DNA of 64,000 bases from Erodium maritimum (taxonomy: Eukaryota > Streptophyta > Magnoliopsida > Geraniales > Geraniaceae), in contig OY997588.1 of the NCBI GenBank assembly GCA_963921825.1, positions 126,635,203 to 126,699,202 on the forward strand. Direction: 5' to 3'. How positions within the stretch are numbered: the stretch's first letter is position 1; every line of letters starts with the position of its first letter. Below, one piece after another: positions 27,971-54,059 of this stretch. Below the pieces are notes generated by a model. That model saw only the letters and a list, made by a program, of their open reading frames with translations. It made no database searches and had not been told where the DNA came from. Position numbers and translations under genes: made by a program.

Positions 27971-28977
27971 TGTGTTTTGCAAATTTAGTGTATATGGTTT
28001 GCGGATTTAGTGTATATGGTTTGCGGATTTAGTGTATATGGTTTGCAGATTTAGTGTATATGGTTTGCGGATTTAGTGTATATGGTTTGCGAGTTTAGTG
28101 TGTTTTGCAAATTTAGTCTATATGGTTTGCGGATTTAGTGTATATGGTTTGCGGATTTAGTGTATATGGTTTGCGAATTTAGTGTATATAGTTTGCGAAT
28201 TTAGTGAATAGGGACATTTTGCTCTATTCTCATCTAATCGAGTCAAGGCATGGAAGTTCTTTGCTGGTATGTTGGGAGCATTTTTCAAACAAATCAAATG
28301 CACTGAACATCAAGAAGATGAAGATATTACAAATCAGCATAATATAGTATATATATTTATATATGGTATTAGACAATTAATATGATGATTTAAGTAACTG
28401 ACTTGGTGTTACAGGGGTTGCCAACTACAAGCACTTTGACATTTGGAGATGCAACAACATTGAGAGCACTGAATCAATAAAGATACAATTTTGAGCAACA
28501 CACATATAACATATATATATATAGACACACTATAAATAACACTAAATTCGTAAACCATATACACTAAATCCGCAAACCATATACACTAAATCCGCAAACC
28601 ATATACACTAAATTTGCAAAACACACAAAATTCGCAAACCATATACACTAAATCTACAAACCATATACACTAAATCCGCAAACCATATACACTAAATCCG
28701 CAAAACACATCACACTTTTTCGCACTCATATTCACACATCCACACACTTATTCAAAAACACATCAAAATATATGCAATTCACTACTTGTTAGAAAGCTCT
28801 TGAAATAATAAGAATATTGGCGCAAGAAAAAATGAAATCGGAGTTGAAACAAAACGGGAAAAATTTAATTAATAAACTTGATTATAAAAAAAGGGGGGCA
28901 TTTTCTGAACGCGACACATGGCGCAATCTGGTTGAGTTCGCATGTTCGCACCGTAACTCATGGTTCGCACATGATTG

Positions 28978-28982
<5 letters not shown>
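27971..28982. mobile_element. (TA)n-flanked TIR transposon G, left end deleted
   Basis: The right end read inward (GAGAGCAATCATGTGCGAACC, then ACGGTGCGAACATGCGAAC) matches the termini of elements D and F. The body carries two opposed arrays of a 22-bp unit containing TTTGCGGATTTAGTGTATA (about 27973-28206 forward, 28540-28720 reversed), with a captured gene fragment between them. The left arm is missing and begins within what is internal sequence in F and in the arm at 49568-50041 (GTGATGTGTTTTGC). This marks a deletion that also removed part of copia-1. Confidence 0.8.
28208..28470 (-). pseudogene. Captured fragment of NADP-malate dehydrogenase gene (in G)
   Basis: On the minus strand, exon-like sequence 28470-28404 encodes a segment ending VKVLVVGNPCNT. 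An intron of about 105 bp starts at GT and ends in CAG. The next exon (about 28297-28208) encodes [28 protein letters not shown]. These are the conserved coenzyme and substrate-binding blocks of plant NADP-dependent malate dehydrogenase; LTRLDxNRA holds the substrate-binding Arg. A single extra T shifts the frame after the acceptor. The fragment has no start, end or promoter of its own, so it is hitchhiking host sequence. The same fragment, shorter, occurs in element F (53303-53541). Confidence 0.85.
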
Positions 28983-29013
<31 letters not shown>

Positions 29014-29015
<2 letters not shown>

Positions 29016-29369
29016 ATTGGTATCAGGTAAAAACCACCCCTGATTGTGCAAACTACGAACTTACCAGGTGCTGACACGTGGGCGCGCGCGCTGCTGATGC
29101 GCGCGCACAGAGCTGACACGTGGCGCGCACGGTGCTAATAGTTTGGGCGCACAATGCTAATAGGTTGGCCTATTAGCACTGTGCGCGCCAAACTATTAGC
29201 ACCGTGCGCGCGCGTGGTCAACACGCTCACGCGCGCGGGCAGAGGCGCGCGCGCATCTGCCACGTGTCAGCATCGCGCGCGCTCTGCTGACGTCACTTTG
29301 ACCGCATCCTGTGGCTTAGATTGGTTCGTAGTTTGCACAATAAGGAGGGTTTTTACTAGATAGCTACCC
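29014..29369. mobile_element. Foldback element A1 (356 bp, (TA)n-flanked)
   Basis: The ends are inverted repeats of about 45 bp: GGTATCAGGTAAAAACC on the left and, read inward from the right, GCTATCTAGTAAAAACC. Both are followed by TGTGCAAACTACGAAC. The interior is an extremely CpG-rich palindrome of GCGCGCAC units centred near 29165 (GCTAATAGGTTGGCCTATTAGC). The GC-rich core contrasts sharply with the A/T-rich surroundings. No coding capacity. Nearly identical to A2 at 39392-39741. Confidence 0.85.
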
Positions 29370-29689
29370 TATATATATATATATAGGGGTACAATCCGTT
29401 GTAAATGTAGCTTATGTTATAAAATGTAAATAGATTGTAATCATTGGATTAGATTAGATGGAAGGATGAGATTAAAATAGTCATTAATGGCATAAATGTA
29501 AATATAAAGAATTTTAAATATATTATGGACATTTTATATGGGATGGGTAAATGTGATTTAATTACTGCAATTTGATTTTTTTACGGTTAAAAAATCTGAT
29601 TTTTTAATAAATTCGAAAATATTATTTTTTTATTACTTTATTTTTGGAAAAAAAATTTAAAAAATTATTCAGCTTTTTTTCTATAATTT

Positions 29690-30285
29690 TATGATTAATA
29701 CTACTATTATTGAATTTTATAGCTACCGTTACAGAATTTATAGCTAATAATACAGTAATTTATAATCAATATTACAGTAATTTGTAGTCAATATTATAGT
29801 AATTTATAACTGATATTACAGTAATTTATAATCAATATTACAGTAATTTATAGACAATATTACAGTAATTTGTAAATAATGTTATGAAACTTTATAGTCA
29901 ATATTACAGTAATTTGTGAGTAATGTTACAACATAGTCCAAACGATGTTATAGAACAATCCAAACGATAATACAAAATAATCTGAACGACGTTACAGTTG
30001 AATCCGAACGATGTTACAAAATAATCCAAACGACGTCACAGAAGAATCGAAATGATAATACAAAATATATTACAAAATAATCCTAATAGGGTTACAAAAT
30101 AATCTGAACGACGTTACAGTTGAATCCGAATGATGTTACAAAATAATCCAAACGATGTTACAAAAGAACCCAAACGATGTTACAGAAGAATCCAAACGAT
30201 GTTACAGATCCAATCTAGTTACGAATAATCCAAACAATATTACAGAATGATCTAAATTATATTATAGTTAAATAAAAGCGATATT
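29690..30285. repeat. Degenerate TTACA-core minisatellite in element B
   Basis: Units of about 21 bp of the form ATTACAGTAATTTATAATCAAT (29740-29930) grade into units of about 20 bp of the form AATCCAAACGATGTTACA (29935-30285). Similar GATGTTACA units continue beyond the solo LTR (33640-34135). All contain TTACA, the complement of the TGTAA found in the element's terminal motif. Confidence 0.7.
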
Positions 30286-30288
30286 ACA

Positions 30289-33200
30289 TGTCACGCCCCA
30301 ATTTCAGCGAACCGAAACTAGGGGCGCGAACGTTTAAAGAGTTACAATACTGAAACCTGTTTTCGTTAAATCACTTTAAAAGTCAGTTTAGTTCCACAAA
30401 AGAATAATATTTACATCTCCAAATAATAGTCCCACACTTGGACAAAACGAGATACACGTCTCTAGACTCAAAACGCCCAGCAACCCGCTTCAAGCTCTTC
30501 AAGCTTCAGAAGCTCACCTAGTCCAGACTACGAACGGTACCTGTAGGAAAAGCAGCTAGGGGTGAGCGTTCGCTCACCACCACAGATAACATACTGACTA
30601 ACGCATAAATAGCAGACAAAGCCGGTGACACCAACCACGACTCAAAAGACACACACACGACCAATACTTTCCTCAACTGACTCAACACTCGGACATGTGA
30701 TGTAGACCCCACACTACGATCGACGACCTCCTCCAAAGACACGACTGACCACACAATACCAGACAGGATCACAAAGGATCGCAAAACGGCTGCTCAGTAA
30801 CCAATCTCTGTCTCTCGCCCTTTACCGATCATAGACGTGGTCAGGCGGTCGACCTGTCGCGCAACTTCTCCCGATCCCAGTCGGGAGGCTAACCCACAAC
30901 CTCTCCGCTTCACCCGATCCCAGTCGGGTGGTTAGCCACACCCGCGCGTCCTTCCCCCGATCCCAGTCGGGGAGCCAGCCCACAACCCCTCTGCTTCTCC
31001 TGATCCCAGTCGGGAGGCTAGCTACACCACACAACCTCCACCAGTATCAAGTAACCAATCACAATCACAAACAAGTTCAAACAGACAGTAACGACACCGG
31101 TGACAACTCCACAGGAACTCAAGGCCAACAAGACACTAACAATCAAACACAGGTTCAACCACCGTACGGGCCCTCATGGCCACCCAAGACACCAACGATA
31201 AAGTACGGGTTCACAACCCCACGGGCACTCACGGCCACCCAAAACACCGAAACGACAAAACGGGCTCTCATGGCCACCCAAGACTCAGCAATAATTAACA
31301 CGGGCTCTCAAGGCCACCCAAACTCAATCAACAAATAACACGGGCTCTCAAGGCCACCCAAACTCAACAACAAATAACACTGGCTCTCAAGGCCACCCAA
31401 ACTCAACAACAAATAACACGCACAACAACCTCCGGGCATGGTCATATGCCTCCAGTAAAACAGTTAACGCTAAGTTCTCTGCTCCTACGACACTACTAAG
31501 TGTCACATGCATTTCCAGTATTCGCTACGTTCCCGTATCATGCATTTCTAATATTCGATAACCTAAATAACCCACGACACCCCGGTGTCACATGCAATTC
31601 TACAGTTAACTTTCCCTAGTCAGGGCCGAGATCCGGCTACTTTTCCCTACCTCGTAAGCAACTCCAAAAGCACTCCACTAAACCCGAGATGATCGCAGTC
31701 ACTCGCCGAGCCTCCCTTTGCCTCGGTCCGCAGCACGATCTAAAAGAACACAGATTTAACTCACTTAAAAACTAGTACGAACAGGCCGAAATTAAATAAA
31801 CTCAACGCCCAAGAGTAACCCCGATAATGTCGATAAAGGACCCTTAAAGGCCCGATTCGCCTGACATGGCGAATCTGCCCGGGTTTTGTAAATTGCCTTC
31901 CGGGGCTCCCCTTCGATCGGATCCGGACTCTAAATTTAACACGAAGCCCCAAATTAATAACGGTTCCGCCGTTAAGTTAAAGCTTACGATTTGTCCAGTT
32001 CAAATACGACAGTTGTCTTTTACACTCGAGCGGGCTAACAGTAGGGTCACGACGGATCGGGTTCGAGCACCCGCGCATCGAACCCAGATTTGATCTAAAC
32101 CCAGTTAAAACCCCTTTTTAGCTTAAACCGTCTTTGAAACTCCTTGCTTTAATTTATTCCAACTTTGATTTTAAAACAAAACGGTTTCCTTCTGCTCGTT
32201 TCCAAACTCGAGATTTTTGGTCCAAAACCCTTCTAAAACCGATTTGATTTCGTTTCCCCCCCCTTTTCGATTTAACTTAACTCAAGTTTGTTTAACAACC
32301 GACCTTCATTTTAAAACCCAATTAAATCAACCGATCTAGTTTTAACGATAACAATTTTACGTCCAAAGTCAAAGATCGAACTTTTGTTTCACATCTGATT
32401 TTCAATGTAAAACTCAACTTAACCCTTTTTTGTTCACATTTAAACAGATCAGGAAAAAAACGTAAGAAACATAATAACGATATCTTATATTTTGTCGTCC
32501 TTTACAATTTCAGATTTACAACGCTTACAATAATCCTTTAAACAAAACCAGAAATCACGCTTTGTTCTTGTTCCTTTCCATTTCGGGAGTTCCGTTCCAT
32601 CCCCGACCAGATCTGAACGAACTCGGGAAAGGGAAAAACAACAGAAGAAGAACGGGATCGGGTTCGGTGCGGCCGACCACCGGCGCCGGTCGGCCGAGGT
32701 TCCACGGGCCGAGAACTAACCGTGAGGAACGATGGCGGCGGTGGAGAGCGGCGGTGCACGGCGGTGTACGGCTCGGGTCCGGACGACTCGTCCCGTTCCG
32801 GATCTGACGAGCTCGCCGGCGACGGCGGGAGCTCGGGTCGTGTTCGGTCGAAGGGAAGGTGGAGCTCGGTGGCGAGCTAGGGCTCGGGACGGAACCGGTG
32901 GTGGACGGCCGGTTTTTGGACGGGGACGGGGAAGACGGCGTGGGGAGCTCGGGGCGAGGGTGGCCGGAGCTGGTGGTGGACAGTGGGAGTTTGGTGAGGA
33001 AGACGAAGGAGAAGGGAGAGGCAGGGAGGTCGGGGACGGTGGTTGTGTGGCTGGCCGGAGCGGTGACAGGGTCGGGATGGAGGAGAAGAAGACGGGACGA
33101 GGCTGGTGAGGGAGGTGGCGGCCGGAAACGGTGGTGGACGGGGCTGGTTTCGGCGAGGAAGACGAGAGAGGAGAGAGAGAGGAATCGAGAGGATCGAAGG

Positions 33201-33447
33201 AGAGGGAGGGAGGCTGCTGCGCGTTCTGATGCTGAAACCCTAGGGTTTCAGCTTATATCAGGACGCGTTGGGCCGAACCCTCTCGGGCCTCAGCTGAAAA
33301 ACGGGCCCAAGGCCCAAACGGCTGGCTGGCCGAAACAGGCCTGGCCTGTCCATTTTTTTTTTTTTTGCTTTACCACTTGTTTCAAAAACCTACCCTACGG
33401 TTTTCGGATTTTAATTTAATACCCTACGAAACGAAGCGGGTTTTACA
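30289..33447 (-). mobile_element. Solo LTR 2 of the TGTCACGCC family (3.16 kb)
   Basis: Perfect 5-bp TSD TTACA (30284-30288 and 33448-33452). It starts TGTCACGCCCCAATTTC and ends GCGGGTTTTACA. It carries a tandem repeat of about 60 bp with the hairpin CCGATCCCAGTCGG (30865-31020, four copies), the CGGGCTCTCAAGGCCACCC repeat (31150-31410), and a GC-rich block (32640-33220). On the minus strand, GATATAAGC about 170 bp from the end followed by AAACCCTAGGG suggests promoter and leader. Open frames in the GC-rich block are low-complexity and not called. It is inserted in element B. Confidence 0.9.
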
Positions 33448-33771
33448 TTACAAATCAAGAATATTAAACTAATGAAACATTTAATCTGCGGACATTAAAC
33501 TTTAGGAAAATCTTTATTATAGTTTCATAATATTATGTTACAGTTTTTGTCAATCTTTGTTACAGTTTTTGTTAAACATTATTACAGTTTTAAAAACATT
33601 ATGTTATCATTTTTAACGATTAAGCATTGAAAAATTACAAACCGATGTTACAAAAAATTACTACCGATGTTACAGTAGATGTTACAGAAAAATACTATCA
33701 CTGTTACAAAAATCGAGATCAATAGAGCTTGACGATTTAGCAATGAGAAATTACAAACGATATTATAGAAA

Positions 33772-34004
33772 TGGTTAATATCATAAAACACCACACAACT
33801 ATACACGTTTTTCAAATAACACATTAAGTTACGATTTTTTCATGTGGCTCATCTGTGTACCAACAAATTATCAAAGTTTGCTGATACATAGGTGTGTCAC
33901 TTGAAAAAATCGTTGATACATAGGTGTGCCACATGAAAAAATCATAACTTAGTGTGTTATTAGAAAAACGTGTATACTTGTGTGGTGCTTTATGATATTA
34001 ACCC
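33772..34004. mobile_element. MITE with 9-bp TSD, inside element B
   Basis: A 9-bp duplication TTATAGAAA (33763-33771 and 34005-34013) flanks a 233-bp palindromic element. The ends GGTTAATATCATAAA are inverted for about 75 bp on each side. The TSD length and long TIRs fit a Mutator-type MITE. No coding capacity. Confidence 0.8.
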
Positions 34005-35098
34005 TTATAGAAAATTACAAACGATGTTACAAAAGATTACAAACGATGTTACAGAAAATTATTATCGATGTTACAGAAAATTACAATCTATGTTACAAAA
34101 AACTTAAACGATGATACACAATGTTTCGACTAATGTTACAATTTAAAAAGTGACCCACACTCTGGAAACCGCAAGATCATTTACAAATGACGTATATGGT
34201 TAGTTTTTAATAACCTTCATGACAACAGTATGATGAATATAAAAATAAGGTGATAAAATAGTAATCAATATATTTAGATTCATGCAAATCACTAATTTTT
34301 TATAAACCTTCACAACAATACAGTGTAATTTGGTTCTTTCTCCAATGAGTTTTGTTATTTGTTGAAATGTATTAGATCTTACTCTCAATCTAATGATCTA
34401 AGTCCAATTGTCTCAAGTTATAAAAAACATATGCACGAAGTCAGCCTGATTGAGGCTACTATGCACATAACTAGTCATGTACATAATCAAAACACAGAAA
34501 AACCAGTGAACTAGTCATTTACAATGGACTGCGTAACTGGAGGTAGATCAACGAACCTTGTAGGAGACCAGCGAGGAGCATGGACGTCTGGTGGAGGTTC
34601 GTGGTTCCTCGGTTCGTAATGGCCGTGACCTCGGCTTCTCCGGACGACGGCGCCACAACATCAGATCCTAGGCTTCTCTGAACTCGGCTTCACCACACGA
34701 CGACACGAAGTGGGAGCTTCTCCTTCCACAGAGGGACGCGAGGATGACGACGGCCATGCAAATCTCGGTTTTGAATTCAGGAGACGGCGCATGCACGGGG
34801 TGAACGGGCGATGGAGGAGGCGTAGGGTGGGGAAGAACGCAACTGAGTATTTTGGGAAGTTGAAAAATGGAAGAGAGAATACGTAATACTAGGGTTGGGG
34901 TTTGGTAAAAAAATATATAGTAAAATACGATAATAACCTTTTATTAGTATAAAAAGTCTAAATAAATACAGATCTGCCATTAATGAAGTTAATAGAATCT
35001 GAGTCGTTGATTTTGTCTAATCTTATGATTACAATTTATTTATATTTTACAATATAAGGATCCATTTACAACGGATTGTGTACCTATATATATATATA

Positions 35099-36860
35099 GG
35101 GGCACGCTCACGTGTTACCCATGCTTAAGTTGTTACTTGTTACCCAAATCTAGACCATTGAATTTTGAAATCTAATGGTTATAGATTTTTTGCTTCAATT
35201 ATCCACAAATTAAATAGAAAAAACACCAAAAGGATAGTTTGGTAAGTCCATCTCCTCTATATATTTACTGCAGAATTAATTTTTACGATCCAAAAATGAA
35301 TTTTTAATATTTATTTTTTCTATAAAATATTTAAAAAAATTAGTTTAAACTTTCGACCGTTCCATAGATTTCGTACGTGAGGTTACAGAATATTATGTAT
35401 AATATTACATAAATTTTATATCTGATATTACATAAATTTTATCCGATATTACATAAATTTATATCGATATTTTATAAATTTTAAATGTTACATAATTCTA
35501 AACAGAAAGTTGCAGATTTCTAGATTAAAAAGTACAGTTTTTTTTATATGTATTACAGAATATTATTCTTTGAATTAAAAAAATCCAATAAGTAACAAAA
35601 ATACAATAAGAGTTGCAAAAATATATGTTATAATTATATAATCTATATACAATGGTTACATAAATTTACACTGACCGTCATAGAAATATTTGTGTTTCAA
35701 AACCCATATATTAAAGTACAGAATTATGCATTAAAAATTACAAAAATTTACACTAACAGTTACACAGAATATTTGTATTTCACTTTCATACATCAAAGTT
35801 ACTAAATACTTTGTTACAGAATTATGCATTCAAAGTTACATAAATTTAAGCTAACAATTACATAATATTTACAGAGAACTAGATTTGATTCAAACCAAAA
35901 TTAGATTAAAACCATATATGATTCAAACAAAAAACCATACAATTTAAGCAGCAAAGCAAAGGAACATTGAACTAAAAAAAAAATCAAACATGTAATATGA
36001 GCAGGAAATCAAGGCAATTTCTCAAACCCAGAAAGAGCACACAACGACTGACAACTTCTCTTAGGCGAGGGACTGCAGCAACGTTTCACGGTCACTGTCG
36101 CTCAGTGCTATGAGCACGACGGCCGGCAACGTGTCTCAGGCGAGGATCTGCAATAAAGTTTCGATGTCACGGTCTCTGGCTGAGGCGGAGCACGACACGC
36201 CGTGAGATCTGGCTGAAGTGTGGTCTCTCCGGTCACGGTCGTGGTAGTGTATCACGACTGCGGGAGAAGAGCGGCGACCTTATCCAGAGCTTGATGGAGA
36301 CGAAAGTTATTGGCACGACGAGTATGGGTACGACCTTGTTCGCTGCAGAGGCTTTGCGAGATGCATGTGGCGGCGAGTGAATCTCGGCGTCGATGTCTGG
36401 CGAGTGAAGCTCTGCGTCGATGTCCGGCGAGTGAAGCTCGGCGTCGATGTCGTGGTCGAGCAAAGGAGAGAGGGTTGGGATTGTTGTTTGCTGCAGAGGC
36501 TTCACGAGATGTAGATGGTGGCAGCCGCCCTGGGAGGAGTCTTCTCCATGTCCGGCGAGTGAAGCACGGCGTCCAAGTCGTGGCCGAGCAAATGAGAGAG
36601 GGTTGCGGCTGTGAAGATATGGAGGAGAGAAACACAATCTAGGTGGTGGACGTGTATTATATATGTAGGGTTTTGTAACATGTTTTTGAAAATGACAATT
36701 CAGCCCTTTCTAATAGTGAAATTACAACAATAAAATTTTAGTTTGATTTATTTATAATTGAGTGCCATTGATTTTATAACCCTTGGATTAATCAAATCTA
36801 ATGGCTCAAAACCAGGTAACAAGTAACGTTATAAGAAAATGTAACACTTGAGCACACTCC
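35099..36860. mobile_element. (TA)n-flanked TIR transposon C (1.76 kb)
   Basis: The left end (GGGGCACGCTCACGTGTTACCC...GTTACTTGTTACC) and the right end read inward (GGAGTGTGCTCAAGTGTTAC...GTTACTTGTTACC) pair imperfectly for about 90 bp. The left two thirds are A/T-rich with many GTTACA or ATTACATAAATTT units (35385-35880). A GC-rich block lies just inside the right end (36040-36630). That block has an internal repeat of 27 bp and open frames on both strands, but no known domain and no transposase. Both (TA)n borders are clean. Confidence 0.85.
36365..36455 (-). repeat. 27-bp in-frame tandem repeat in element C
   Basis: On the minus strand the unit encodes HSPDIDAEL, repeated about three times within an open frame spanning 36233-36637. 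On the plus strand it reads GGCGAGTGAAGCTCGGCGTCGATGTC-like. Since the unit length is a multiple of three, the frame stays open in both directions. I take this as repeat-driven rather than proof of a gene. Confidence 0.6.
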
Positions 36861-36885
36861 TATATATATATATATATATATATAT

Positions 36886-37270
36886 GGAGACAATCACGTG
36901 CGAACCTCCCTTACGGTGCGAACCTGCGAACCTCAAATCTGGTTTGCGGAAATAGCGAACATGGTTTGCGGAAATAAGCATCCCAGTTTGCGGAAAAAAA
37001 AAGTTTGAAAAGACAGCATTTTTATGTTGAGAAAATATATGGATTGCGAAAATAGTGTATCTGGTTTGCGGAAATAGCGAATATGGTTTGCGGAAATAAG
37101 CATCCCAGTTTGCGGAAAAGAAGTTTGAAAAAAAAGCATTTTATCTTGAGAAAAATATGGTTTGCGAAAACACCGCAAACCGAGAACACTATTTCCGCAA
37201 ACCAGATACACTGCACAAGCAGGTTCGCACGTTCGCACCGTAAGCCATGGTTCGCACTTGATTTCACCCG
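36886..37270. mobile_element. (TA)n-flanked TIR transposon D (385 bp)
   Basis: Ends: GGAGACAATCACGTGCGAACC, with ACGGTGCGAACCTGCGAAC inside, and its inverted counterpart GGTTCGCACTTGATTTCACCC. The TIRs are about 50 bp and match those of F and G, so D is a short member of that family. The interior holds a direct repeat of about 122 bp (36939-37060 and 37061-37182) built from GGTTTGCGGAAATAGCGAA-type units, then an inverted copy (37183-37215). Non-coding. Confidence 0.85.
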
Positions 37271-37280
37271 TATATATATA

Positions 37281-39373
37281 GACACTATCTACTAAAAACC
37301 AATGATTTAATAGAAACTAGGGAGTAAATATGACCACATGATTAGAATAAATGGATGAATGAGATTACACATCTCATTAATGGTATAGATGTAAATAAAT
37401 ATAACTTTAAATGCATTTTAGACATTTAAAATGGAAAGATAAAAGCTGATTTTTTTTATCGCACAATTACTGTAACGGCACTGTAGCGTTACTGTAGCAA
37501 ATTAATTGTTTCATTTAGATTAACTGAATGTTTCATTCCTGTTTTCATATTTGAATCAAGTGTTTCATTTGGTTGAACTAAATGTTTCATCTCTTGTTTT
37601 CAGATTTAACTTTGATAAATCTTTATTTTGTCGAATCATGTATTTCATTTGATGAATTTTTCATTTTGCATTGTTTCATTTGAATGATTATGGTGTTTCA
37701 TTCGCCGCATTTGATTTGGAACTAACCTATATCTCTGAATATAATGTTTCATTACTATAACATAATGTTTCATTTTGATGCACCTAATATTTCATATAAT
37801 CTAAGTTTTGAATTTTTCATTTTGCTGGTGTTTCATTTGAATGAAAATGGTGTTTTATTTTATTAATATAATGTTTCATATATTAAATAAATAAATATGA
37901 TGTTTCATTTCCATACACTTAGTGTTTCATTTCCATGAATGTTAATGTTTCATTTCTAAGCCATACCATGAATCTTACTGTTTCATTTTTAATACATAGC
38001 CATTTAACAAAACCCATAAATATATAATATTTACATTAAAAAAATGAAACAAAGTACAAATAAAGAACTTTGGCTCCATCCCAAACTAGAATAACAAAAA
38101 TCTCCATCTTGTGAGTTTAATGTTCCTGAAGCATCCCACACTAGAATAACACATATCTCCATCTCATGAGGCTCATGTTCCTGAAAAATCAATCAATTTC
38201 CAATGGTTTTATAGTGGTTTATTTGCCGGTAGTGATGTTTCACTGTCCAATTCAAACTAAAAATAATATCCCTCAACAAGATAACTTATAAATGAAAGCT
38301 AACATCAAATAGTACCCCAAAAAATACACAAAACCTAAACCAAACCATTGAAAATAAATTCATTTGTCATTTGAAGCAATTATAATTTAATAACAAGCTA
38401 AATTAGAAGGCCACAAATACATTTACATATGAAGAAATCGAACAGCTTGAAAAAAAATCCAGTTTGCTTTTAAAAGTAGCAACAATGATTAAAATGCATA
38501 TTGATACTTCCTTTTTAAGATAGTGAGACATTGTAATAACAAACAAAGCAATATCAAAATGCTCATAAATCCCATAAATGACATGAAACGACTGCCAAAT
38601 CCTCCCAAAATTTAAAATCTTGAAACGATTCTCATATCTTACTATGAAGACTTGGTGCCCCTTCTAGTCCAGACAGACAATCACAATTTCATGATTGCAA
38701 CATTACAATTTCAACAAGTACACAAATTTTATAATCATCATCAAATGGACACCATTTTTAATGGACATAATTGAATTGAACTCTTACCTGATTATCTGCG
38801 AGACCCATCTCCGAGCCACTTCCTGGTGTATTCTCTCGGATCAACGGCGACCCACGGCGGCGGACAACGCATGAGCTCACCAACGGCCCACGGTGAGGGA
38901 TCCACTTTGGAACAACATCGAAAACCTTGAAGCTCGCGTGACGACGGTGATAGAACCGCGCCAGACCTCGCGATTTTTGATCAGTTGTGTGGCAACCAAC
39001 AGTTGGAGCAACGAACTAAACCGTGCATCAGCGAGACCACCGGTAGGAGCATTGGAGAAGAGGGTTGAAACCGATCGCGCTGCATCTGGAAGAGCTCGAG
39101 GCGGCGGTATTCAGCTGTAGATGATGAGTTGAGAGAGGGAGAGGTACGAGTGAGAAACGTGAAAAAATGGTTAGGGTTAAGATTAGATGAAAGGGGAGGT
39201 AAAATTCCAGATATGTCCTTTTGGGGCGTGAAATTACCATTACTTTTTTTAGCTTTTTTAATAATTACGGTTGAGTACCCTTTTAATCTGGTCCCTTAAT
39301 ATCAATAGATCTAATGGTTACAATTAGTCCATAGTTTGTATCAAACCATATGGTTTGTAGTGGATAGTAAGTC
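37281..39373. mobile_element. (TA)n-flanked TIR transposon E (2.1 kb)
   Basis: The left end GACACTATCTACTAAAAACC and the right end read inward (GACTTACTATCCACTACAAACC) form imperfect TIRs of about 70 bp. The interior starts with an array of GTTTCATT units (37500-37990). A direct duplication of about 58 bp lies at 38070-38180, and a GC-rich block of about 350 bp (38800-39130) just inside the right end. The block has short frames but no domain I recognise. No transposase. Confidence 0.8.
37500..37990. repeat. GTTTCATT array in element E
   Basis: About 19 occurrences of TGTTTCATT or one-base variants occur within 490 bp, spaced irregularly at 15-45 bp. The core GTTTC is the complement of the GAAAC in the element's terminal motif TAGAAAC. 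Spacing is too irregular for a simple satellite and the text between units varies. Confidence 0.75.
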
Positions 39374-39391
39374 TATATATATATATATATT

Positions 39392-39739
39392 GGTATCAGG
39401 TAAAAACCACCCCTTATTGTGCAAACTACGAACTCACCAGGTGTTGACACGTGGACGCGCGCGCTGCTGATGCGCGCGCACAGTGCTGACACGTGGCGCG
39501 CACGGTGCTAATAGTTTAGGCGCACAGTGCTAATAGGTTGGCCTATTAGCACTGTGCGCGCCAAACTATTAGCACCGTGCGCGCGCGTGGTCAACACGCT
39601 CACGCGCGTGGGCAGAGGCGCGCACGCATCTGCCACGTGTCAGCATCGCGCGCGCTCTGCTGACATCACTTTGACCGCATCTTGTGGCTTAGATTGATTC
39701 GTAGTTTGCACAATAAGGAGGGTTTTTACTGGATAGCCA

Positions 39740-39800: not shown

Positions 39801-39803
<3 letters not shown>

Positions 39804-40246: not shown

Positions 40247-40254
40247 GTTGACTA

Positions 40255-43480: not shown

Positions 43481-43986
43481 GCAGTTACCTTATCCTTAAT
43501 CCTCTTTCTTTTATTTTCCATTGAGGTCGTTGCAACATGAGCACTTTCAGCCTTTTCACGCTTCAACCTATCCTCTTGTTGCACAAAATGAGAAATGAGC
43601 TCATTAAGAGTCCATTTGTCCTAATAAGTATTATAGCTAACTATAAACTAACCATAGTGTGCAAGAAGTGAGATTATGACCAAAGGCACAAGCAAGTCAT
43701 CAGACAGATCAAGCTTGAGCCCTTTAAGTTTTGAAGCGATGTTAGACATCTCCATAATGTACTCCCTTCTGTTTCCTTTTCCTTTATACCTCATTTGGAC
43801 AAAGTCAGCTAAAAGCTTGCTTGTCTCGTCCTTTTCGTTCTTTGTAAAACGACTTACAATTTCTTAAAGGAAACTCCTTACAGTGACCTCATTCGGTATA
43901 CCGCCCCTAAATGTTTCTGGAACACTACTTCTAAAGTTTGTGCCGTTAAGCACATGAATTGAATTCATGTTGGCAGTGATATTAGC
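43481..43986 (-). pseudogene. copia-2 gag remnant (C-terminal side)
   Basis: On the minus strand this reads like a copia capsid region ending in ELISHFVQQEDRLKREKAES, the segment that normally precedes the zinc knuckle. The knuckle and everything up to mid-integrase are missing at the junction near 43480-43500. Solo LTR 3 separates this part from the gag N-terminus at 47201 and beyond. Confidence 0.7.
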
Positions 43987-46900
43987 TGTCACGCCCCAAT
44001 TTCAGTAAACCGAACTCGGGACGCGAACGTTTAGAATAAGAAAGCACTTTGAAAACATTTCCATTAAAACACTTTACAATACCAGTTTAGTTCAACAAAA
44101 GATAATTACAATTCAAATAAAACGTCCCACAAGCGGACAAAAGGGCGAGGTATCCGTCGCTAGACCAAAAGTAAAAACCCGGACTCCGCTCCTAGCTCCA
44201 CAAGCTTCGAGAGCTCACCTAGTCCGTCCCACGAACAGTACCTGTAGGAAAAGCAGCTAGGGGTGAGCGTTCGCTCACCACCACGGATAACAGACTGACT
44301 ACGGCATAATTAGCAGACAATGCCGGTAACACCAACAACAAACTCAACCCCGGGGATCACTGTCCCCAACCCAAGTACTCTGACTGACAAACACCCACGG
44401 TGACCTTCCTCGAACGACTCAACACTCAAACACGTAAGTAGACACGACAAAACGATCACGACCTCTTCCAAGGACTCAAAGGAACCACGTAACCCCAAAC
44501 AAGATCACAAAGGATCGCAAACCAGCTGCTCAGTAATCTCCCTCACTCATGCGCTTTGCCGAACCACTCAGGCCAGGCGGTCGACCTGTCTCAATAACCT
44601 CTCTTACTCACGCACTTTGCCGAACCACTCAGGCCAGGCGGTCGACCTATCTCACTCACCTCTCTTACTCACGCACTTTGCCGAACCACTCAGGCCAGGC
44701 GGTCGACCTGTCTCACTCACCTCTCTCACTCAGGCAACCACAATCACAGTCACAATCACCAACACAAACACAAGTAAGTTCGACAACACAGGCACTCAAG
44801 GCCACTCAAGACACCTCAACAATCAAGACTCGGGTCCAACAACCCCACGGGCACTCACTGCCACTCAAGACACACCAACGATCAAGACTCGGGTTAAACA
44901 CCCCACGGCACTCACGGCCACCCCAAAACACCGAAACGACAACACGGGCTCTCATGGCCACCCAAGACTCAGCAATAAATAACACGGGCTCTCAAGGCCA
45001 CCCAAGACTCAGCAATAAAAACACGGGCTCTCAAGGCCACTCAACTCAACCGTAAAAAATAACACACAACAACCTCCGGCCTAAACGATGCCTCCAACAG
45101 TCCTAAGATCGTTAGTTTCACAAACAACCTCCGGGCATGGTCATATGCCTCCAGTACTCCTAATATCAACAAGTTCACAAACAACCTCCGGGCATGGTCA
45201 TATGCCTCCAGGAAATCAATTATCGCAAAGTTCTCTGTTCCTACGACACTACTAAGTGTCACATGCTTTTCTCTTAAACGCTACAACCCCGTACCATGCA
45301 TTTCTAATAATTACTACAATCCCGTAACATGCTTTTCTAATAATCGATAACCTAGATAACCCACGACACCCCGGTGTCACATGCAATTCTACTATTAACT
45401 TTCCCTAGTCAGGGCCGAGATCCGGCTACTTTTCCCTACCTCAACTGAAGAGCAACCGCTACACTTCCTAGCTGCTGGCGTTCTAGCTCGCTACCCCCGA
45501 GCTTCACTTCGATCGAAGCCGGACTCTAAAGCCATAAATTAATGACGGTTCCACCGTTAAGTTAAAGATTAATTTAACGGTCAGGATCACTCCAGTTTAA
45601 ATCCGACAGTTGTCCCTTAAACTCGAGCGGGATAAAAACGGGGTCACGGCGAATCGGGTTTGAGTACCCGAGCACCGATACTGGTGCATGCGAGGCACGG
45701 TCCCAATGCACGAATCCCGGGGTCTGATTCAGCGGTCCGCTTTTGTTCCCCTTTTAACCCAGCTAGCAGTCCAATTTAACCAGAGTTCCAGATTCGTTCC
45801 TAATTCCGATTACCAACCGTTTATTCAAAACAGAACGGTTTTTGTTTCAAATCTAATTCCCTTTTTAATTCAAATCCATTTCCGTTCCGATCTTTGTTTT
45901 TGAACAACCGCCCCTAAATCCCATTTACAAATTAGATTCACAACTCCTCGATTCAAACTGTTTTTAAAACCGAAACGCTTTTAATCCCCTTTTCATTTTA
46001 AAACCCTTTTTTCTTAAATTTGATTTTCCGGTTTACAACCTTTTCTTTCCAAAACTGTGATTTCGATTTCAACCGAAGCAACTCCAAAAAAAACCGTCTT
46101 TTACTCCAATCTGATTTTCAAATTCTTTTCCTTCAAAACCCTAATCAAATCCAAACTGTTTTGTTTTGTTTTACTTCCCTTTTCAACTTCAAAACCGATT
46201 CTAAATTAATCGATTTCATTTACAGGTTTAACAGATATTAATCGATTTCATTAACGGTTTAACCAAATACAGATCCAAACTAACTCGAAAAAGGTTTTAT
46301 TTCATTTTCTTTGTTTGTTACAACAAAACCCGATTTACAGTAGTTCGAAGACGGGAAAAATAGAGGTTCGGTTTCGAACCGGTCGGCCGCCGGTGAGGGC
46401 GGCGTCGGCCGGGGCCTAACCGTAGAGAAGGGACGGCAAGGGCGGCGGCGGCGCACGGCGGTGCACGGCTGGACTCTTCTCGGCTCAGATCCGGACGACC
46501 ATGGAGGCTTCGTCCCGGATCTGTCGAACGCGCCAGAGTCGAGCACGGGAGAGGAAGCCGGCGTGGGGAGCTCGGGGACGGCGGCTTGACGGCGGCGTGG
46601 TTGGACAGATCTTGTGAGGGAGGAGGGTCGGACGGCGAACTCGGGCTCGGTCGGCGCTGGCGTGGTTGGACGGAGGAGGTGAGGAGGACAGAGGTGAGGG
46701 TCGCCGAAGCTGGAGACGGGAGAGGGAGTGGTGGCCGGATCTGGTTAGGGCGAAGAAGGAGGTCGGAGAGGACGTTTTCCGGCAAGGTGAGACGGCGAGG
46801 GGTGAGGGAGATGGTGGTCGGGGACGGCCGGCGACGGAGGAGGAAGGAGAGGGTCGGGGACGGCCGGCGACGGAGGAGGAAGGAGAGGGTCGGGGACGGC

Positions 46901-47195
46901 CGGCGACGGAGGAGGAAGGAGAGGGTCGGCTACGTGGGTCGAAGAAGAGAGGAGGAGGCGGCTGAAGGAGAAGGGGAAATGGGGATTAGGGTTTCAGAAC
47001 CCTAATGCCCACCCTTTTATAGGTCGGGCTTTGGGCCGGCCATTTGGGGCTCAGACAACAAATGGGCTCAAGCCCAAACCGGGTCTGGCCTGCCCAGCTT
47101 CCATTCTGTTTTTTTTGTGCCACTTGTTTCAAGAACCTACCCTAAGGTTTTAGGATTTTAAATTAATACCCTAATGAAACGAAGCGGGTTTTACA
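43987..47195 (-). mobile_element. Solo LTR 3 of the TGTCACGCC family (3.21 kb)
   Basis: Perfect 5-bp TSD TTAGC (43982-43986 and 47196-47200). TGTCACGCCCCAATTTC to GCGGGTTTTACA. Tandem repeats: a unit of about 60 bp with CACTTTGCCGAACCACTCAG (44545-44710, three copies), CGGGCTCTCAAGGCCACCC units, and a 36-bp G-rich unit AGGGTCGGGGACGGCCGGCG (46810-46925). On the minus strand CCTATAAAAGGGTGGG lies near 47010-47030, about 170 bp from the end, followed by AACCCTAATCCCC: a good TATA box and leader. TTTTCCTACAGGTAC near 44240 on the minus strand is acceptor-like. Inserted in gag of copia-2. Confidence 0.92.
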
Positions 47196-47518
47196 TTAGC
47201 ACCCGATAGTAACTATCAATACAGAACAAATAAATACATAAGCTCAAACATTGAAAATCATGTTATAACACATTAAGAATAAGCAAACAATTCTCATGTG
47301 ATACACAATTTTCAATCAACCGAAGTGATGGGCCCATACAACCAAGATACCTAGCACAACATTAATGTCTATCTTTGGATAGAATCATTAATTCGTAAGT
47401 GGTACTCTTGCACGCAGAAATCAAGTGCTGACAATAAGTTCGGTCAAATAACATCCTTCCTTTAGGCCGGTATGTTATCCACATGAAAACTTTACAATCG
47501 TCACACACCATTCCCACA

Positions 47519-47930
47519 CGTGTATTCATTGTTCGGCCAATCAATGACCTTCCTTTGGGCCGATGCATTGACCGCATGAACAATGAACACACACATCCCG
47601 TTATTCCAAAATAAATAAACCTACACACAAGAGTTTACTTTGGCAACTTTATGTGTTGATCTACTCATTTAAAATATGGGACAAAAAAATATATAAGTAA
47701 GTGCCCAAATCTAAAATTTTGATATCAAATTCATTGTTCGGCCAATCAATGACCTTCCTTTGGGCCGAGCATTGATCGCATGAACAATGAACACACACAT
47801 CCTACTATTTTAAAATAAACAAACCTACACACAAGAGGTTACTTTGGCAACTTTATGTGTCGATTTACTTATTCAAAATAGGGGACAAAATAATATAAGT
47901 AGGTATCCAAATCTAAAATTTAGATATCAA
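47519..47930. repeat. Direct duplication of about 205 bp in copia-2 leader/gag region
   Basis: The segment beginning at about 47524 with TTCATTGTTCGGCCAATCAA and ending near 47728 in TTTTGATATCAAA recurs at about 47729-47930 with small differences. It belongs to the untranslated part or the start of gag of copia-2. A third, weaker partial copy of the GGCCG...CTTCCTTT text lies at 47440-47470. Confidence 0.7.
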
Positions 47931-48747
47931 AAACTTAAAATTATTTTAAGCACTTCCCAATTCCAAAAGAATCAACAGTACATACATTAATCACCTATAA
48001 GGCTATTGTAATTTCAGTCACATAAACCATCACAAGGTGAGCAACAGTAAACCCATAATTAGCCAAATCACGTACATATACACACTCATACGATAATAAG
48101 TCAACAAGTATATAACAAAGGTTATATAACAACTTTAATCAACTATCTTCGTAAATCACAATAACATGTAGAGTACACAGCATATGCGTATGTATATGAC
48201 ATGTATAAACGGTCGTTAACCAATTTAATATGAAGAAGATACATACAAACATATGATTATTAAGCAAAAGCAACTCACGGGATCAACCAAGTCATGCCCT
48301 TAAGTCAAAGCAAATAATCAAATGATCAACCAAAAATCCTTAAATCAAATTATGATAAAGCATAACGACCTTTTGCTGAATTCAATTGAAAACAAATGCA
48401 TAGGAACATCTCAGTACATATATATGTCTTAACCTTAACCAGACATGATATATACATATATATATATATATATATAAAAGACTACTATATATATCACCAA
48501 AACCGATGGTTGACAAATAAATCAACCAAAACCAAAACTTTATCCATGTACAGAATACACGATCAACACTAAATCAAACCAAAACAATTAATTACTGTAT
48601 GAACCATTGTTACGCATACAACCACCAATTCATGCGTATAATCGCAGTATATAAATATGCATGTCTACGACAATTAAACCCAACAAACGGTAGTTAATCC
48701 CGACAAAAACCATTCAAATTAAACCCCGATAATTCGACTGAAGCGTG

Positions 48748-48759
48748 ACTCTGATACCA
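48748..48759 (-). other. Primer binding site of copia-2 (initiator Met tRNA type)
   Basis: On the minus strand TGGTATCAGAGT follows the 5' LTR by two bases. It is complementary to the 3' end of plant initiator methionine tRNA, the usual primer for copia reverse transcription. It fixes the element's orientation. Confidence 0.85.
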
Positions 48760-48761
48760 CT

Positions 48762-49190
48762 TGTTAGAACCCTAATCGAATCCTTTAAGAATCCAACACT
48801 TAGTCAAACAATCGGGATTTAAACATAGAACAACATAGAAAACGTACCTGATGATTCCATGTTGATGACGAGAACAAAATCGGTTTGGCCTTCCACAGTT
48901 CAATCCCTTATGCTCTCCTAATATGCTCTCGCTCTACAGATGGGGATGGAGGAGAAAAGAGAGACGGCTGATTGAACTTGGGGACCAAACCCTAATATGC
49001 CTTTATATATAGAATCTGAATAAAGCCCATTACTCTAATCAGATTTATATGGATATCACACATTACAAAGCCCATACTCATTAATATTTTAAATTGGGCT
49101 TCCCAACTAGTAGCCCAGTACAAATCATTGGCTCCAAATATACTTGTCCAATTTGTAAGCCCACACGTTGGATTATAAAATAACCCAACA
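48762..49190 (-). repeat. copia-2 right LTR (5' LTR)
   Basis: 429 bp, six substitutions against the left LTR and no indels seen. It is followed by the likely target duplication AACTA. Confidence 0.9.
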
Positions 49191-49567
49191 AACTACTATT
49201 AGATCTTCACGTTTATTTCTGAAGAAATATTGTTGAATTGCAATGAAATAGGCCCATGACATTGTTACTGTGTAATTAATATATCAACTAATAACCAATA
49301 TACATATTGAATGAAACTAAAATAGAACCAAACATAATTTCTTAATGCAAACACTGAAACTTATTAATAAACTTTCTTGTGCAAACAGTAATCAAAATTG
49401 AGAGATAACTTACTCAATTATCAAGTACCAGAAATTGAAAAGTGAAGAAGCTCTTCATCATTTATGGAAGAACCAAATTCTGAATATGTAATACATTATG
49501 TGGGTATGCATCAATTCACTTACATTCTCCATGGTTGATAATAATTGAACCCTTGTCACCCAAAGAA
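49191..49567. other. Unique interior piece of element F
   Basis: A/T-rich, no open frame, no repeat shared with the arms. It lies between copia-2 and the extra G-type arm. I recognise nothing in it. Confidence 0.4.
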
Positions 49568-50041
49568 CATGCGAACTCAACTAGATTGCGCCATGTGTCG
49601 CGCTCAGAAAATGCCCCCCTTTTTTTATAATCAAGTTTATTAATTCGATTTTTCCCGTTTCGTTTCAACTCCGATTTCATTTTTTCTTGCGCCAATATTC
49701 TTATTTTTTCAAGAGCTTTCTAACAAGTAGTGGACTGCATATATTTTGATGTGTTTTTGAATAAGTGTGTGGATGTGTGAATATGAGTGCGAAAAAGTGT
49801 GATGTGTTTTGCGGATTTAGTGTATATGGTTTGCGGATTTAGTGTATATGGTTTGCGGATTTAGTGTATATGGTTTGCGGATTTAGTGTATATGGTTTGC
49901 GGATTTAGTGTATATGTCTGCGAATTTAGTGTGTTTTGCAAATTTAGTGTATATGGTTTGCGGATTTAGTGTATATGGTTTGCGGATTAGTGTATATGGT
50001 TTGCGGATTTAGTGTATATGGTTTGCGAATTTAGTGTATAT
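49568..50041. repeat. Extra left arm of the G subtype within F
   Basis: Starting CATGCGAACTCAACTAGATTGCGCC, this matches the reverse complement of the G right arm (28700-28960) more closely than it matches the F left arm. Shared details include GCGCCATGTGTCGCGCTCAGAAAATGCCCCCC. The outermost 30 or so bases with the first terminal motif are missing. It ends in the 22-bp minisatellite (49805-50041). Confidence 0.75.
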
Positions 50042-53000
50042 TGTCACGCCCCAATTTCAGCGAACCGAACTCGGGACGCGAACGTTTAAAAAGTTACAAT
50101 ACTTGAAACCTGTTTTCATTAAAACACCTTAAAATACCAGTTTAGTTCAACAAAATAATATTTACAACTTAAAATACGTCCCAACACGTGGACAAACGAG
50201 GTACACGTCACTAGACTCAAAACTCCCAGAACCCGCTTCAAGCTCTTCAAGCTTCAGAAGCTCACCTAAACCAGCCTGCGAACGGTACCTGTAGGAAAAG
50301 CAGCTAGGGGTGAGCGTTCGCTCACCACCACGGATAACAGACTGACTGCGACATACTTAGTAGACAAAGCCGGTGACACCAACAACGACTCAAAAGACAC
50401 ACACACGACCAATACTTTCCTCAACTGACTCAACACTCGGACACGTGATGTAGACCCCACACTACGATCGACGACCTCCTCCAAAGACACGACTGACAAC
50501 CACACAATACCAAACAAGATCACAAAGGATCGCAAACCAGCTGCTCAGTACCCAATCTCTGTCTCTCTCGCCCTTTACCGATCACAGACGTGGTCAGGCG
50601 GTCGACCTATCGCGCAACTTCTCCCGATCCCAGTCGGGAGGCTAACCCACAACCTCTCCGCTTCACCCGATCCCAGTCGGGTGGTTAGCCACACCCGCGC
50701 GTCCTTCCCCCGATCCCAGTCGGGGAGCTAGCCCACAACCTCTCCGCTTCTCCCGATCCCAGTCGGGAGGCTAGCTACACCACACAACCTCCACCAGTAT
50801 CAAGTAACCAATCACAATCACAAACAAATTCAAACAGACAGTAACGACACCGGTGGCAACTCCACAGGCACTCAAGGCCAACAAGACACCAACAACCAAA
50901 CACAGGTTCAACAACCCTACGGGCCCTCATGGCCACCCAAGACACCAACGGTAAAGTACGGGTTCACAACCCCACGGGCACTCACGGCCACCGAAAACAC
51001 CGAAACGACAACACGGGCTCTCATGTCCACCCAAGACTCAGCAATAAATAAGACGGGCTCTCATGGCCACCCAAGACTCAGCAATAAATAAGACGGGCTC
51101 TCAAGGCCACTCAAGACTCAGCAATAAATAAGACGGGCTCTCAAGGCCACTCAAGACTCAGCAATAAATAAGACGGGCTCTCAAGGCCACTCAAACTCGA
51201 CAATAAACAACACTGGCTCTCAAGGCCACCCAACTCAACAGTAAATAACACACAACAACCTCCGGCATAAACGGTGCCTCCAACAGTCCTAAGATCACTA
51301 GTTTCACAAACAACATCCGGGCATGGTCATATGCCTCCAGCAGTCCTACTATCAACAGTTTCACAATCAACCTCCGGGCATGGTCATATGCCTCCAGTAA
51401 AACAATTAACGCTAAGTTCTCTGCTCCTACGACACTACTAAGTGTCACATGCGTTTCCAGTAATTACTAAGTTCCCGTAACATGCTTTTCTAATATTCGA
51501 TAACCTAAAAACCCACGACACCCCGGTGTCACATGCAATTCTACAGTTAACTTTCCCTAGTCAAGGACGAGATCCGGCTACTTTTCCCTACCTCACGACG
51601 AAACTACAGCAGCGTCTCCTAGCTGCTGACGACCGGGCCAACGCCGTCTTCCAGGGCGAAGTCCGCGTCTGGGTGTAACTCCGGTTTTCCCTTCGATCGA
51701 AGCCGCACTCTACTTTACACAGAAGGTTACAAATTAATAACGGTTCCGTCGTTAAATTAAAGGTTACGATTACTCTAGTTTTAAATCCGATAGTTGTCCT
51801 TTAAACTCGAGCGGGCTACAAGCGTATTACGGCGAATCGGATTTGAGTCCCCGAGCACCGAAACCGGTGCATGTTTCCGAAGCACGGTCCCAATGCACGA
51901 ATCTCGAGGCCCGGGTTTCGTGGCATGATTCCCGAGGTACCCGGTTCAGCGTTCCACTTTTAAAACTCGTTCTAAGTCCGATTTAAACGTCCAGCTTAAA
52001 CGTTCAGGTTCCAAAATCAAATCTGATTTTAAACTCTTTTATTTTAAACCCTTTTTCATTTTCCAATTTTAACCCTTTTTGTTTAAAACCGTTTTGATCT
52101 CCAAATCCCTTCTGGTTAACTATTTTTTTTGTTCTCAAAACCCTCTTTTAGATCTTTTCTGATAAATCCTTGGTCTTCTTCAATCAATTTGTTAAAATGC
52201 TTTAGTTTCGAAAACATTAACTCACAACCAGAAACTGCTCGGGAATCAAAAGGGAAGAAGGGATAGGTTTGATTTCGCAAATCGACCGACCTCGAAATTC
52301 TCACCGTAGGGAAACGGTGGACGGGCGGTGGCCGCGGTGCCGGTCGTGGAGGCGGAGCAAGGCGTGGCTCCGTCTTAGATCTAGACGAGACCGATGAGGG
52401 TTTCGGGTCTATGAGCGTGCCGGCGAGCTCACCTCGCCTCTGGACGTTCCCGGCGACGGCGAGGGCTCGGTTGCGCGCGGTTGAGGACGGTGGCGGCGAG
52501 AACTCGTAGAGGACGGCGGGACGAGGGCGTGGCTGCGAGGAGGAAGAGAGGGAGAGACGGTGGCGTGTCGTGCGGTGGTGGTCGGAAACGGACCCGGAGA
52601 CGGCTGGAAGGTCGGATCTAGGGGAGGGCGGCGGCGGACGTGAAGAGGGAGGTGGAGAGGGAGGTGAGGGCTCGGGTTTATGAGGACGACGGCGGGGAGG
52701 GCGGCGCTCGAGGTCGGGGAGGAGAGGTGGTCGGTGGGGGTCGGGTTCGAACGAAGAAGAAAGGGTCGGAACGAGGGGGGAGGTCGCTGGCCGGAGACGG
52801 AGATGAGGGTGAGAGGGTCGGGTTCGACGATGGAGAGAGGGTGAGAGAGAGGATCGGTTTTGAGAAGAGGGAGGCAGACTTTAGGGTTTCAGAGCAAAGC
52901 CATGGTTTTATAGTGAGGCCATGTGACGGGCTCGGCTAAGTGGGCTCAAGACAGAGGCTTTGGGCCTCAAGTGGGCTCGCGCCTGACTGCCCAAGGGAAG

Positions 53001-53191
53001 GAATGGCGGGCGGGCCTGGCCTGGCTGGGTTGCTGGTCGGGTCTGGCCTGCTCAACTTTTTTTTTACACGACTAAAGAATTAAAACGAATTTCTGCCTCG
53101 CCTTTACCAGAACCGATTTAGATTTCAACCTCGACGTTCCGCACGATTAAAATTTAATTAATTCAACCTTTTCACCGAAGCAGTGTTCACA
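50042..53191 (-). mobile_element. Solo LTR 4 of the TGTCACGCC family (3.15 kb)
   Basis: Perfect 5-bp TSD TATAT (50037-50041 and 53192-53196). TGTCACGCCCCAATTTC to AGTGTTCACA. The first half is very close to solo LTR 2 (same CCGATCCCAGTCGG hairpin repeat at 50620-50770), but the last 100 bp or so differ. Tandem CGGGCTCTCAAGGCCACTC units occur at 51010-51230. On the minus strand ACTATAAAACCATGG near 52895-52915 is TATA-like, with a leader of AAACCCTAAAG. The GC-rich block 52310-52870 has repeat-driven frames that I do not call genes. It lies in the minisatellite of F. Confidence 0.9.
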
Positions 53192-53302
53192 TATATGGTT
53201 TGCGAATTTAGTGTATATGGTTTGTGAATTTAGTGTTATTTATAGTGTGTCCATATATATATGTTATATGTGTTGCTCAAAATTGTATCTTTATTGATTC
53301 AG

Positions 53303-53541
53303 TGCTCTCAATGCTGTTGCATCTCCAAATGTCAAAGTGCTTGTAGTTGGCAACCCTTGTAACACCAAGTCAGTTACTTAAATCATCATATTAATTCATC
53401 ATATTAATTGTCTAATACCATATATAAATATATATACTATATTATGCTGATTTGTAATATCTTCGTCTTCTTGATGTTCAATGCATTTGATTTGTTTGAA
53501 AAATGCTCCCAACATACCGGCAAAGAACTTCCATGCCTTGA
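53303..53541 (+). pseudogene. Captured fragment of NADP-malate dehydrogenase gene (in F)
   Basis: After intron-like sequence ending TTGATTCAG, exon sequence 53303-53368 encodes LNAVASPNVKVLVVGNPCNT. An intron starts at GT (53369), and the next exon, 53482-53541, encodes [19 protein letters not shown]. The acceptor here reads CAA where the G copy has CAG. The same extra T shifts the frame. The F copy ends right after HAL, whereas G continues through [11 protein letters not shown], so each copy lost different edges of one ancestral capture. No promoter or start belongs to it. Confidence 0.88.
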
Positions 53542-54019
53542 ACATCACTAAATAAATTCGCAAACCATATACACTAAATTCGCAAACCATATACATTAAA
53601 TCTGCAAAACCATATACACTAAATCCGCAAACCATATACACTAAATTTGCAAAACACACTAAATTCGCAAACCATATACACTAAATCCGCAAACCATATA
53701 CACTAAATCCGCAAACCATATACACTAAATCCGCAAACCATATACACTAAATTTGCAAAACACATCACACTTTTTCGCACTCATATTCACACATCCACAC
53801 ATGTATTCAAGAACACATCAAAATATATGCAATCCACTACTTGTTAGAAAGCTCTTGAAAAAATAAGAATATTGGCGCAAAAAAAAAATTAAATCGGAGT
53901 TGAAACGAAGCGGGAAAAATTAAATTAATGAACTTGGTGGGGAAAAAAAAGATGAGCATTTCTAAGCGCGACACGTGTCATGTTGTTGTTGAGTTCGCAG
54001 GGTTGACACCTGAAAGCCT

Positions 54020-54055
<36 letters not shown>

Positions 54056-54059
<4 letters not shown>

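Follow-up and report, generated by a model that had tools for sequence, protein, structure and literature searches.

A TA-linked chain of transposons in Erodium maritimum, read as a microsatellite-targeted array of Mutator-like elements seeded in a Copia long terminal repeat

We analysed a 64,000-nucleotide stretch of the Erodium maritimum genome (the window; C1:126635203-126699202 of the 763-Mb genome), in which eight transposon units, named G, A1, B, C, D, E, A2 and F, abut through pure TA runs over the 26,088 bp from position 27968 to 54055. We read this chain, with a probability of about 0.9, as an array of microsatellite-targeted, non-autonomous Mutator-like elements (MULEs) of the SaTar type (Valdes Franco et al., 2018; PMC5907723), seeded in the (TA)n of a Copia long terminal repeat (LTR). 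On this reading, these transposons use TA repeats as insertion sites, which is why nothing else stands between the units. Statements on published systems refer to the main text of the papers cited.

Architecture of the chain and its terminal signature

The units and their links, with positions counted from the first base of the window, are as follows.

27968-28982, plus strand: element G, right end intact, left end lost at a breakpoint, with 22-bp subterminal repeats
28983-29013: (TA)n link, 31 bp
29014-29369, plus strand: element A1, 356 bp
29370-29385: (TA)n link, 16 bp
29386-35084, plus strand: element B, about 2.5 kb without its nested solo LTR
35085-35098: (TA)n link, 14 bp
35099-36860, plus strand: element C
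36861-36885: (TA)n link, 25 bp
36886-37270, plus strand: element D, with termini of the F/G type
37271-37280: (TA)n link, 10 bp
37281-39373, plus strand: element E
39374-39390: (TA)n link, 17 bp
39391-39741, plus strand: element A2, of the family of A1
39742-39800: (TA)n link, 59 bp
39801-40254, plus strand: F1, first-type arm of an F/G-family element
49565-54022, minus strand: F2, a G-family element oriented opposite to G, its outermost left arm degenerate or lost
54023-54055: (TA)n of 33 bp that separates F2 from the remainder of a Copia1 LTR

The original prediction, made from the window alone, had placed eight units here with nothing but TA between them, and both the positions and the purity of the links (10-59 bp) were borne out. 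TA runs of at least 10 bp occurred 11 times in the 26,088 bp, compared with a mean of 0.07 and a maximum of 1 in 100 dinucleotide-preserving shuffles; eight of the 11 lay at unit borders and the other three inside G, F2 and Copia2, a retrotransposon nested in F. Runs of at least 14 bp numbered eight, seven of them at borders, against a mean of 0 in 50 shuffles. Imperfect terminal inverted repeats (TIRs), by which SaTar elements are recognised, were found throughout, the inverted-repeat score of all eight units exceeding those of all 100 of their own shuffles, with the best alignment formed by inner parts in A1 and by inner arms in G, whose left end is lost. No chain member was seen to interrupt another in the window.

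The same prediction had spoken of eight different transposons. The eight units stand, but they are not all different: A1 and A2 are identical at 337 of 351 aligned bases and hence belong to one family, D, F and G have termini in common, and F is probably two fused elements. Likewise, the 26-kb extent holds, but about 15.3 kb of it consists of retroelements inserted later into B and F, leaving a chain of about 10.8 kb. The open reading frame (ORF) at 36233-36709 in element C, the only one scanned among the chain-unit ORFs of at least 130 amino acids, had no Pfam match. Element B contains a foldback of about 240 bp at 33770-34006 with arms of 108 bp.

To characterize the termini, 13 unit ends were aligned without gaps, the two A2 ends being left out and the left end of G being absent. 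The ends of every chain family carry a common signature, in which TC, a T four bases on and an A four bases further are invariant, mostly followed by ACC. The information content of this signature was reached by none of 200 null sets of inner segments and, with one end taken from each of five families, by none of 500 null sets. Because no null set reached it, we regard the several TIR types as variants of one end type, which suggests, from the sequence of the ends, that one group of transposases lies behind all the chained families. The common signature also offers a simple handle for finding further such families. Exact and degenerate end patterns gave no matches in viral contigs, and one degenerate pattern gave 17 matches in genome contigs, all in prokaryote records.

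The outer arms of unit F match each other (98% over 400 bp), so that a single arm type is present on the left (from 39801) and on the right (to 54022). In the arm alignment, the segment 49565-50041 proved to be an arm of the second type, as at the right end of G, and F2, taken in reverse, aligns with G throughout and carries both a first-type and a second-type arm. We rejected F as one simple element, as its inner arm belongs to the second type, and read it as F1 plus F2 because 49565-50041 is such an arm. Judging from these arms, F is most likely two elements fused without a TA link after loss of the far end of F1 and the outermost bases of F2; fusion by deletion of link and ends is described in PMC5907723. 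In F1, no G-like interior was recognised beyond the 22-bp repeats.

TA flanks in the genome and the empty site in the host LTR

We assessed the flanks of other copies throughout the assembly for the A and F/G families, which the genome-wide counts cover. For the G family, a first look gave 72 candidates and 40 scored places, all of which were read, 39 of them besides the window copy. In these 39 copies, 68 of 78 possible ends were located, and 65 of the 68 had a TA run of at least 8 bp (the other three lying one each in L033, L039 and L080); 29 copies had TA on both sides. On the far side of the TA, a further signature end follows in 34 of the 65 cases, with the threshold set so that 1% of random positions pass it. 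For the A family, in which the first look gave 2,078 candidates, we read 20 of the 40 scored places, including flanks of 90 bp; TA of at least 8 bp stood at 39 of the 40 ends and 6 bp at the last. In 20 of 39 flanks the TA continues into a further signature end; one flank could not be scored because of its shortness. Exact 22-base ends stood directly after TATATA in 824 of 921 cases for the A type and in 56 of 56 for the F/G type, and one place fitted a pattern that has G or C in three of the nine flanking positions. The expectation that other copies would carry (TA)n flanks is therefore upheld for these families.

Of 40 copies of G, that of the window included, 38 have an unbroken internal TA tract (6-30 bp), L039 and L084 aligning less well; the copies were chosen by a query near this tract, which could hide some interruptions. 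An E query (38240-38700, 461 bp) gave 17 matches, four of which cover the whole query; one of these is the window's own, so that three lie elsewhere. Copies of the A family often stand about 6-40 bp apart, in direct and inverted orientation, as at C3:35697081-35697436 and 35697443-35697798 among the first listed places. In L028, L029, L032 and L040, the TA tract is set off from the G-family end GGAGAG.. by a TC or CT run.

The chain lies in a Copia retrotransposon, Copia1, which spans 20641-54189, beyond the coordinates of the original prediction, with GAACA immediately outside both LTRs.

20636-20640: 5-bp target duplication GAACA, left of Copia1
20641-21007, minus strand: sister LTR of Copia1 (TG..CA), site empty
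21930-27904, minus strand: pol remnants of Copia1, interrupted by a LINE-like (long interspersed nuclear element) insert and a solo LTR
21930-22370, minus strand: RVT_2 (Pfam)
27066-27551, minus strand: retroviral SH3-like domain (Pfam)
54056-54189, minus strand: what remains of the other Copia1 LTR, matching the sister at 129 of 134 bases
54190-54194: 5-bp target duplication GAACA, right of Copia1

The empty site of the sister LTR is ATATATATACATATAT, directly ahead of GATGTCTC at 20874, and the right LTR meets the 33-bp TA run of the chain where its sister carries ATATATATACATATAT. The two LTRs of one retrotransposon insertion are copied from one template and start identical, so the sister LTR shows the site as it was before insertion. 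Because the pair has one template and a unit is present in one LTR only, the chain arrived after Copia1 had integrated. The order of events in general rests on nesting; dating by LTR divergence (5/134 for Copia1 versus 6/429 for Copia2, p=0.14) was not relied on. To the left of the chain, the breakpoint lies near 27968, beside SH3-like sequence that also resembles Copia2 (59% over 27259-27718), and the deletion has taken the left portion of the right LTR as well as the start of Copia1 and the left end of G. A stretch of a second Copia copy (L108) showed no real alignment with 27174-28000 of the window, and the ORF at 27428-27904 had no Pfam match.

Other copies of the Copia1 LTR supply parallel empty and filled sites within one genome. 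We read 30 of 40 listed places, calling a site empty when nothing more than a short tract rich in TA, or a small deletion, lay between the two LTR halves. Empty sites numbered 24, including the window's sister LTR (L057), and four were occupied, including that of the window (L046), with one unclear (L060) and one not assessable (L072); several of the 30 form sister pairs, so that they do not represent 30 independent insertions. In L054, an A-family element stands between TA runs of 22 and 17 bp, and in L065 a 900-bp element with inverted repeats of more than 300 bp stands between runs of 55 and 52 bp; both LTR halves are present in each. The site of L061 holds an end that we call C-like, its identity to element C being 69% over 424 bp. 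By coordinates and strand, L063 is probably the sister LTR of L061, and L051 that of L065; both are empty. In L072, the LTR is cut by another LTR. The same LTR site has been filled independently, by different elements in different copies. Together with the A and G flanks, the empty sister LTR supports the originally proposed repeated targeting of (TA)n beside a resident element.

Since sister and paralogous LTRs give empty and filled sites, target choice and TA lengthening can be measured here without resequencing relatives. The same sites bear on the possibility that tandem or segmental duplication of ready modules, and not serial insertion, spread the chain. Such duplication probably happens somewhere, as three listed A termini (C1:90785410, 90786068 and 90786726) follow one another at intervals of exactly 658 bp; as the origin of the chain it is very improbable, given that the neighbours within the window differ, that A1 and A2 have different neighbours, and that the LTR site holds different elements in different copies. 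An assembly artefact at TA repeats, a risk that the original prediction had itself raised and one that TA runs generally carry, being hard to assemble, is hardly credible. No link is longer than 59 bp; the outer GAACA copies match, as do the two LTR parts, over a distance of 33.5 kb; many of the 39 G-family and 20 A-family copies again show signature ends linked by TA; and L054 and L065 are complete small examples elsewhere in the assembly.

The retroelements nested in the chain are the following.

30289-33447, plus strand: solo LTR nested in B, target duplication TTACA
40255-49190, minus strand: Copia2, nested in F, with LTRs at 40255-40683 and 48762-49190
43987-47195: solo LTR inside Copia2, flanked by TTAGC
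50042-53191, plus strand: solo LTR nested in F2, target duplication TATAT

The LTRs of Copia2 differ at 6 of 429 positions, and its flanks, GACTA and AACTA, are alike at four of five. Four solo LTRs in the window begin with TGTCACGCCCC, namely those at 24812-27174, 30289-33447, 43987-47195 and 50042-53191, three of about 3.2 kb and one of about 2.4 kb, with 5-bp repeats TGAAC, TTACA, TTAGC and TATAT, respectively; they reflect repeated LTR-LTR recombination in one retrotransposon family. The minus-strand insert in Copia1 at about 23007-24750, which is flanked on either side by AACTTGATT and shows a T run on the left, is probably a 5'-truncated LINE-like copy. About 3 kb to the right of the chain begins an HSP90 gene (57006-61604; Pfam match at 61206-61604), which we take to be of the chloroplast type from the resemblance of the ORF at 57006. 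This gene and the plant-type retrotransposons are content expected of a flowering plant.

Proposed growth of the chain and its alternatives

In the mechanism that we propose, an older Copia retrotransposon would have carried a short (TA)n in its LTR and, after its integration, elements of several families with one terminal signature would have entered that (TA)n. Each insertion would have left outer TA tracts that received the next element, and the chain could have grown without its elements cutting one another because those outer tracts took the next insertions. Unrelated retroelements would later have landed inside two members, and a later deletion would have taken the left part of that LTR together with the left end of G. 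The members presumably arrived serially and not jointly, mobilised in trans by a FAR1/MULE transposase, and the TA tracts may have lengthened at or after insertion.

The order of events at the TA tract is the point on which an alternative departs from this mechanism, and it does so only in what comes first: the elements would choose short sites rich in TA, and repair or slippage, upon insertion or later, would produce the long (TA)n, as has been proposed for the maize TAFT elements according to PMC5907723. We give this version an even chance. The pure TA touching element ends had a median of 17 bp (n=100), whereas the longest run in empty LTR sites had a median of 9 bp (n=19; p=3e-5), a comparison that leaves out five further empty copies with no counted tract and sets paralogous copies of one site, not alleles, against the flanks of other sites. 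The runs of 55 and 52 bp on the two sides of L065 point the same way, and lengthening on insertion is reported for MuTAnT elements (PMC4486113). However, the empty sites L052 and L055 already hold 28 and 30 bp, so that length varies without insertion, and a preference for longer tracts predicts the same contrast.

Target duplications cannot be read inside pure TA. At the impure TA site of L039, the ends carry an exact 10-bp duplication, TATACATGTA, a size within the 8-11 bp that PMC5907723 gives for MULEs. Five other matches of the duplication script were set aside as TA plus the end of a neighbour. The duplication in L039 also bears on the model of PMC5907723, in which circular intermediates carrying a microsatellite recombine into genomic (TA)n. 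That model would account for the strict microsatellite sites and the lack of nesting, but the L039 duplication, a single case, points to staggered cutting, and we consider circular intermediates unlikely.

A search for the MULE transposase domain yielded 150 scored matches from 1,627 candidates. One of these, at C1:84860160, lies, by coordinates, 2.6 kb inward of an exact A terminus. Locus L109 comprises TA-linked units, the last of which begins with the signature and holds FAR1 (PF03101) and MULE (PF10551) exons about 0.9 kb inside that end; TATATA joins the end to a small TA-linked unit beside A-family sequence. We treat L109 only as a lead to a candidate autonomous partner, since a rough, uncomputed estimate puts at about 0.1 the number of coincidences between a transposase match and an A terminus to be expected among the places listed. 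Tentatively, and with odds somewhat short of even, one FAR1/MULE-type transposase may read the signature of all the chained families and aim at TA tracts, the (TA)n of the Copia LTR acting as a mobile landing pad by which the retrotransposon carries targets around the genome and on which DNA elements seed and lengthen chains. If so, the copy number of the retrotransposon would set where, and how many, chains can start.

Several observations weigh against the reading of the chain as a microsatellite-targeted array seeded in the Copia1 LTR. The left half of that LTR is absent from the window, so that entry of the chain into it is visible on the right side only, and the parse of F is ambiguous. 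Among the other LTR copies, the C-like end in L061 has a signature score of only 1.5, with the left half of the LTR not found within the 1,500 bp read, and L060 has 37 unexplained bp between its LTR halves. Regarding the flanks, TATATA does not directly precede 97 of the 921 exact A termini, the pure TA touching the end is shorter than 6 bp in 11 of 100 flanks, and a clear target duplication was found in only one of 50 two-ended copies. Finally, no right end was recognised for L109, where the sole far reverse match (score 12.7) has no adjoining TA.

Comparison with known systems

The original prediction held a TA-linked chain of several families to be undescribed, and this part of it falls. 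PMC5907723 describes exactly such arrays, named gSaTar, rSaTar, sSaTar and cSaTar in guayule, rice, sorghum and citrus, and PMC8449440 reports 4,024 clusters of Ac-mMITEs in pineapple. The chain is a further example of a published pattern, in another plant genome.

In pineapple, 46.1% of the full-length Ac-mMITE copies are clustered without nesting (PMC8449440). These elements resemble ours in being TA-flanked and Mutator-like and in having GA/TC runs beside their ends, as in L028, L029, L032 and L040; they comprise two short families, whereas about six families occur here, some of at least 2 kb. MuTAnT of Medicago (PMC4486113) is a TA-targeted MULE family with a variable G run at the end, 9-nt duplications at imperfect (TA)n, flanks longer than the empty sites, and an autonomous member encoding a Jittery-like transposase. 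We liken it to our elements by description and not by sequence, and chains are not described in the main sections of that paper. Carrot MiMs comprise 15 TA-flanked families, three of them tied to putative autonomous Mutator elements (PMC8227079); the word 'cluster' is absent from the main text of that paper, in which we saw no chains described. Rice Micron, which the original prediction had cited and which PMC5907723 equates with rSaTar2, one of the rice SaTars, is a small (TA)n-flanked element and is again likened by description, not by sequence. For an LTR microsatellite as the seed, with the sister LTR as the empty control, no description was found in the main-text literature searched, supplements lying outside the search.

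The closest likeness is to the SaTar arrays, which consist of unrelated, uninterrupted, non-autonomous MULEs linked by microsatellites, with more than 300 clusters in guayule and a cluster of eight elements in sorghum (PMC5907723). Mixed TIR families joined by (TA)n, the lack of mutual interruption and the fusions are common to both. The same paper reports a cluster with rSaTar4 interrupted by Ty3, 10-bp duplications outside microsatellites, and empty TA sites between rice subspecies. The present case differs in its genome and families and in the rarity of clear 10-bp duplications (1 of 50). It also differs in its seed, which here is a microsatellite within an LTR, with an empty sister and several independent fillings of the same site.

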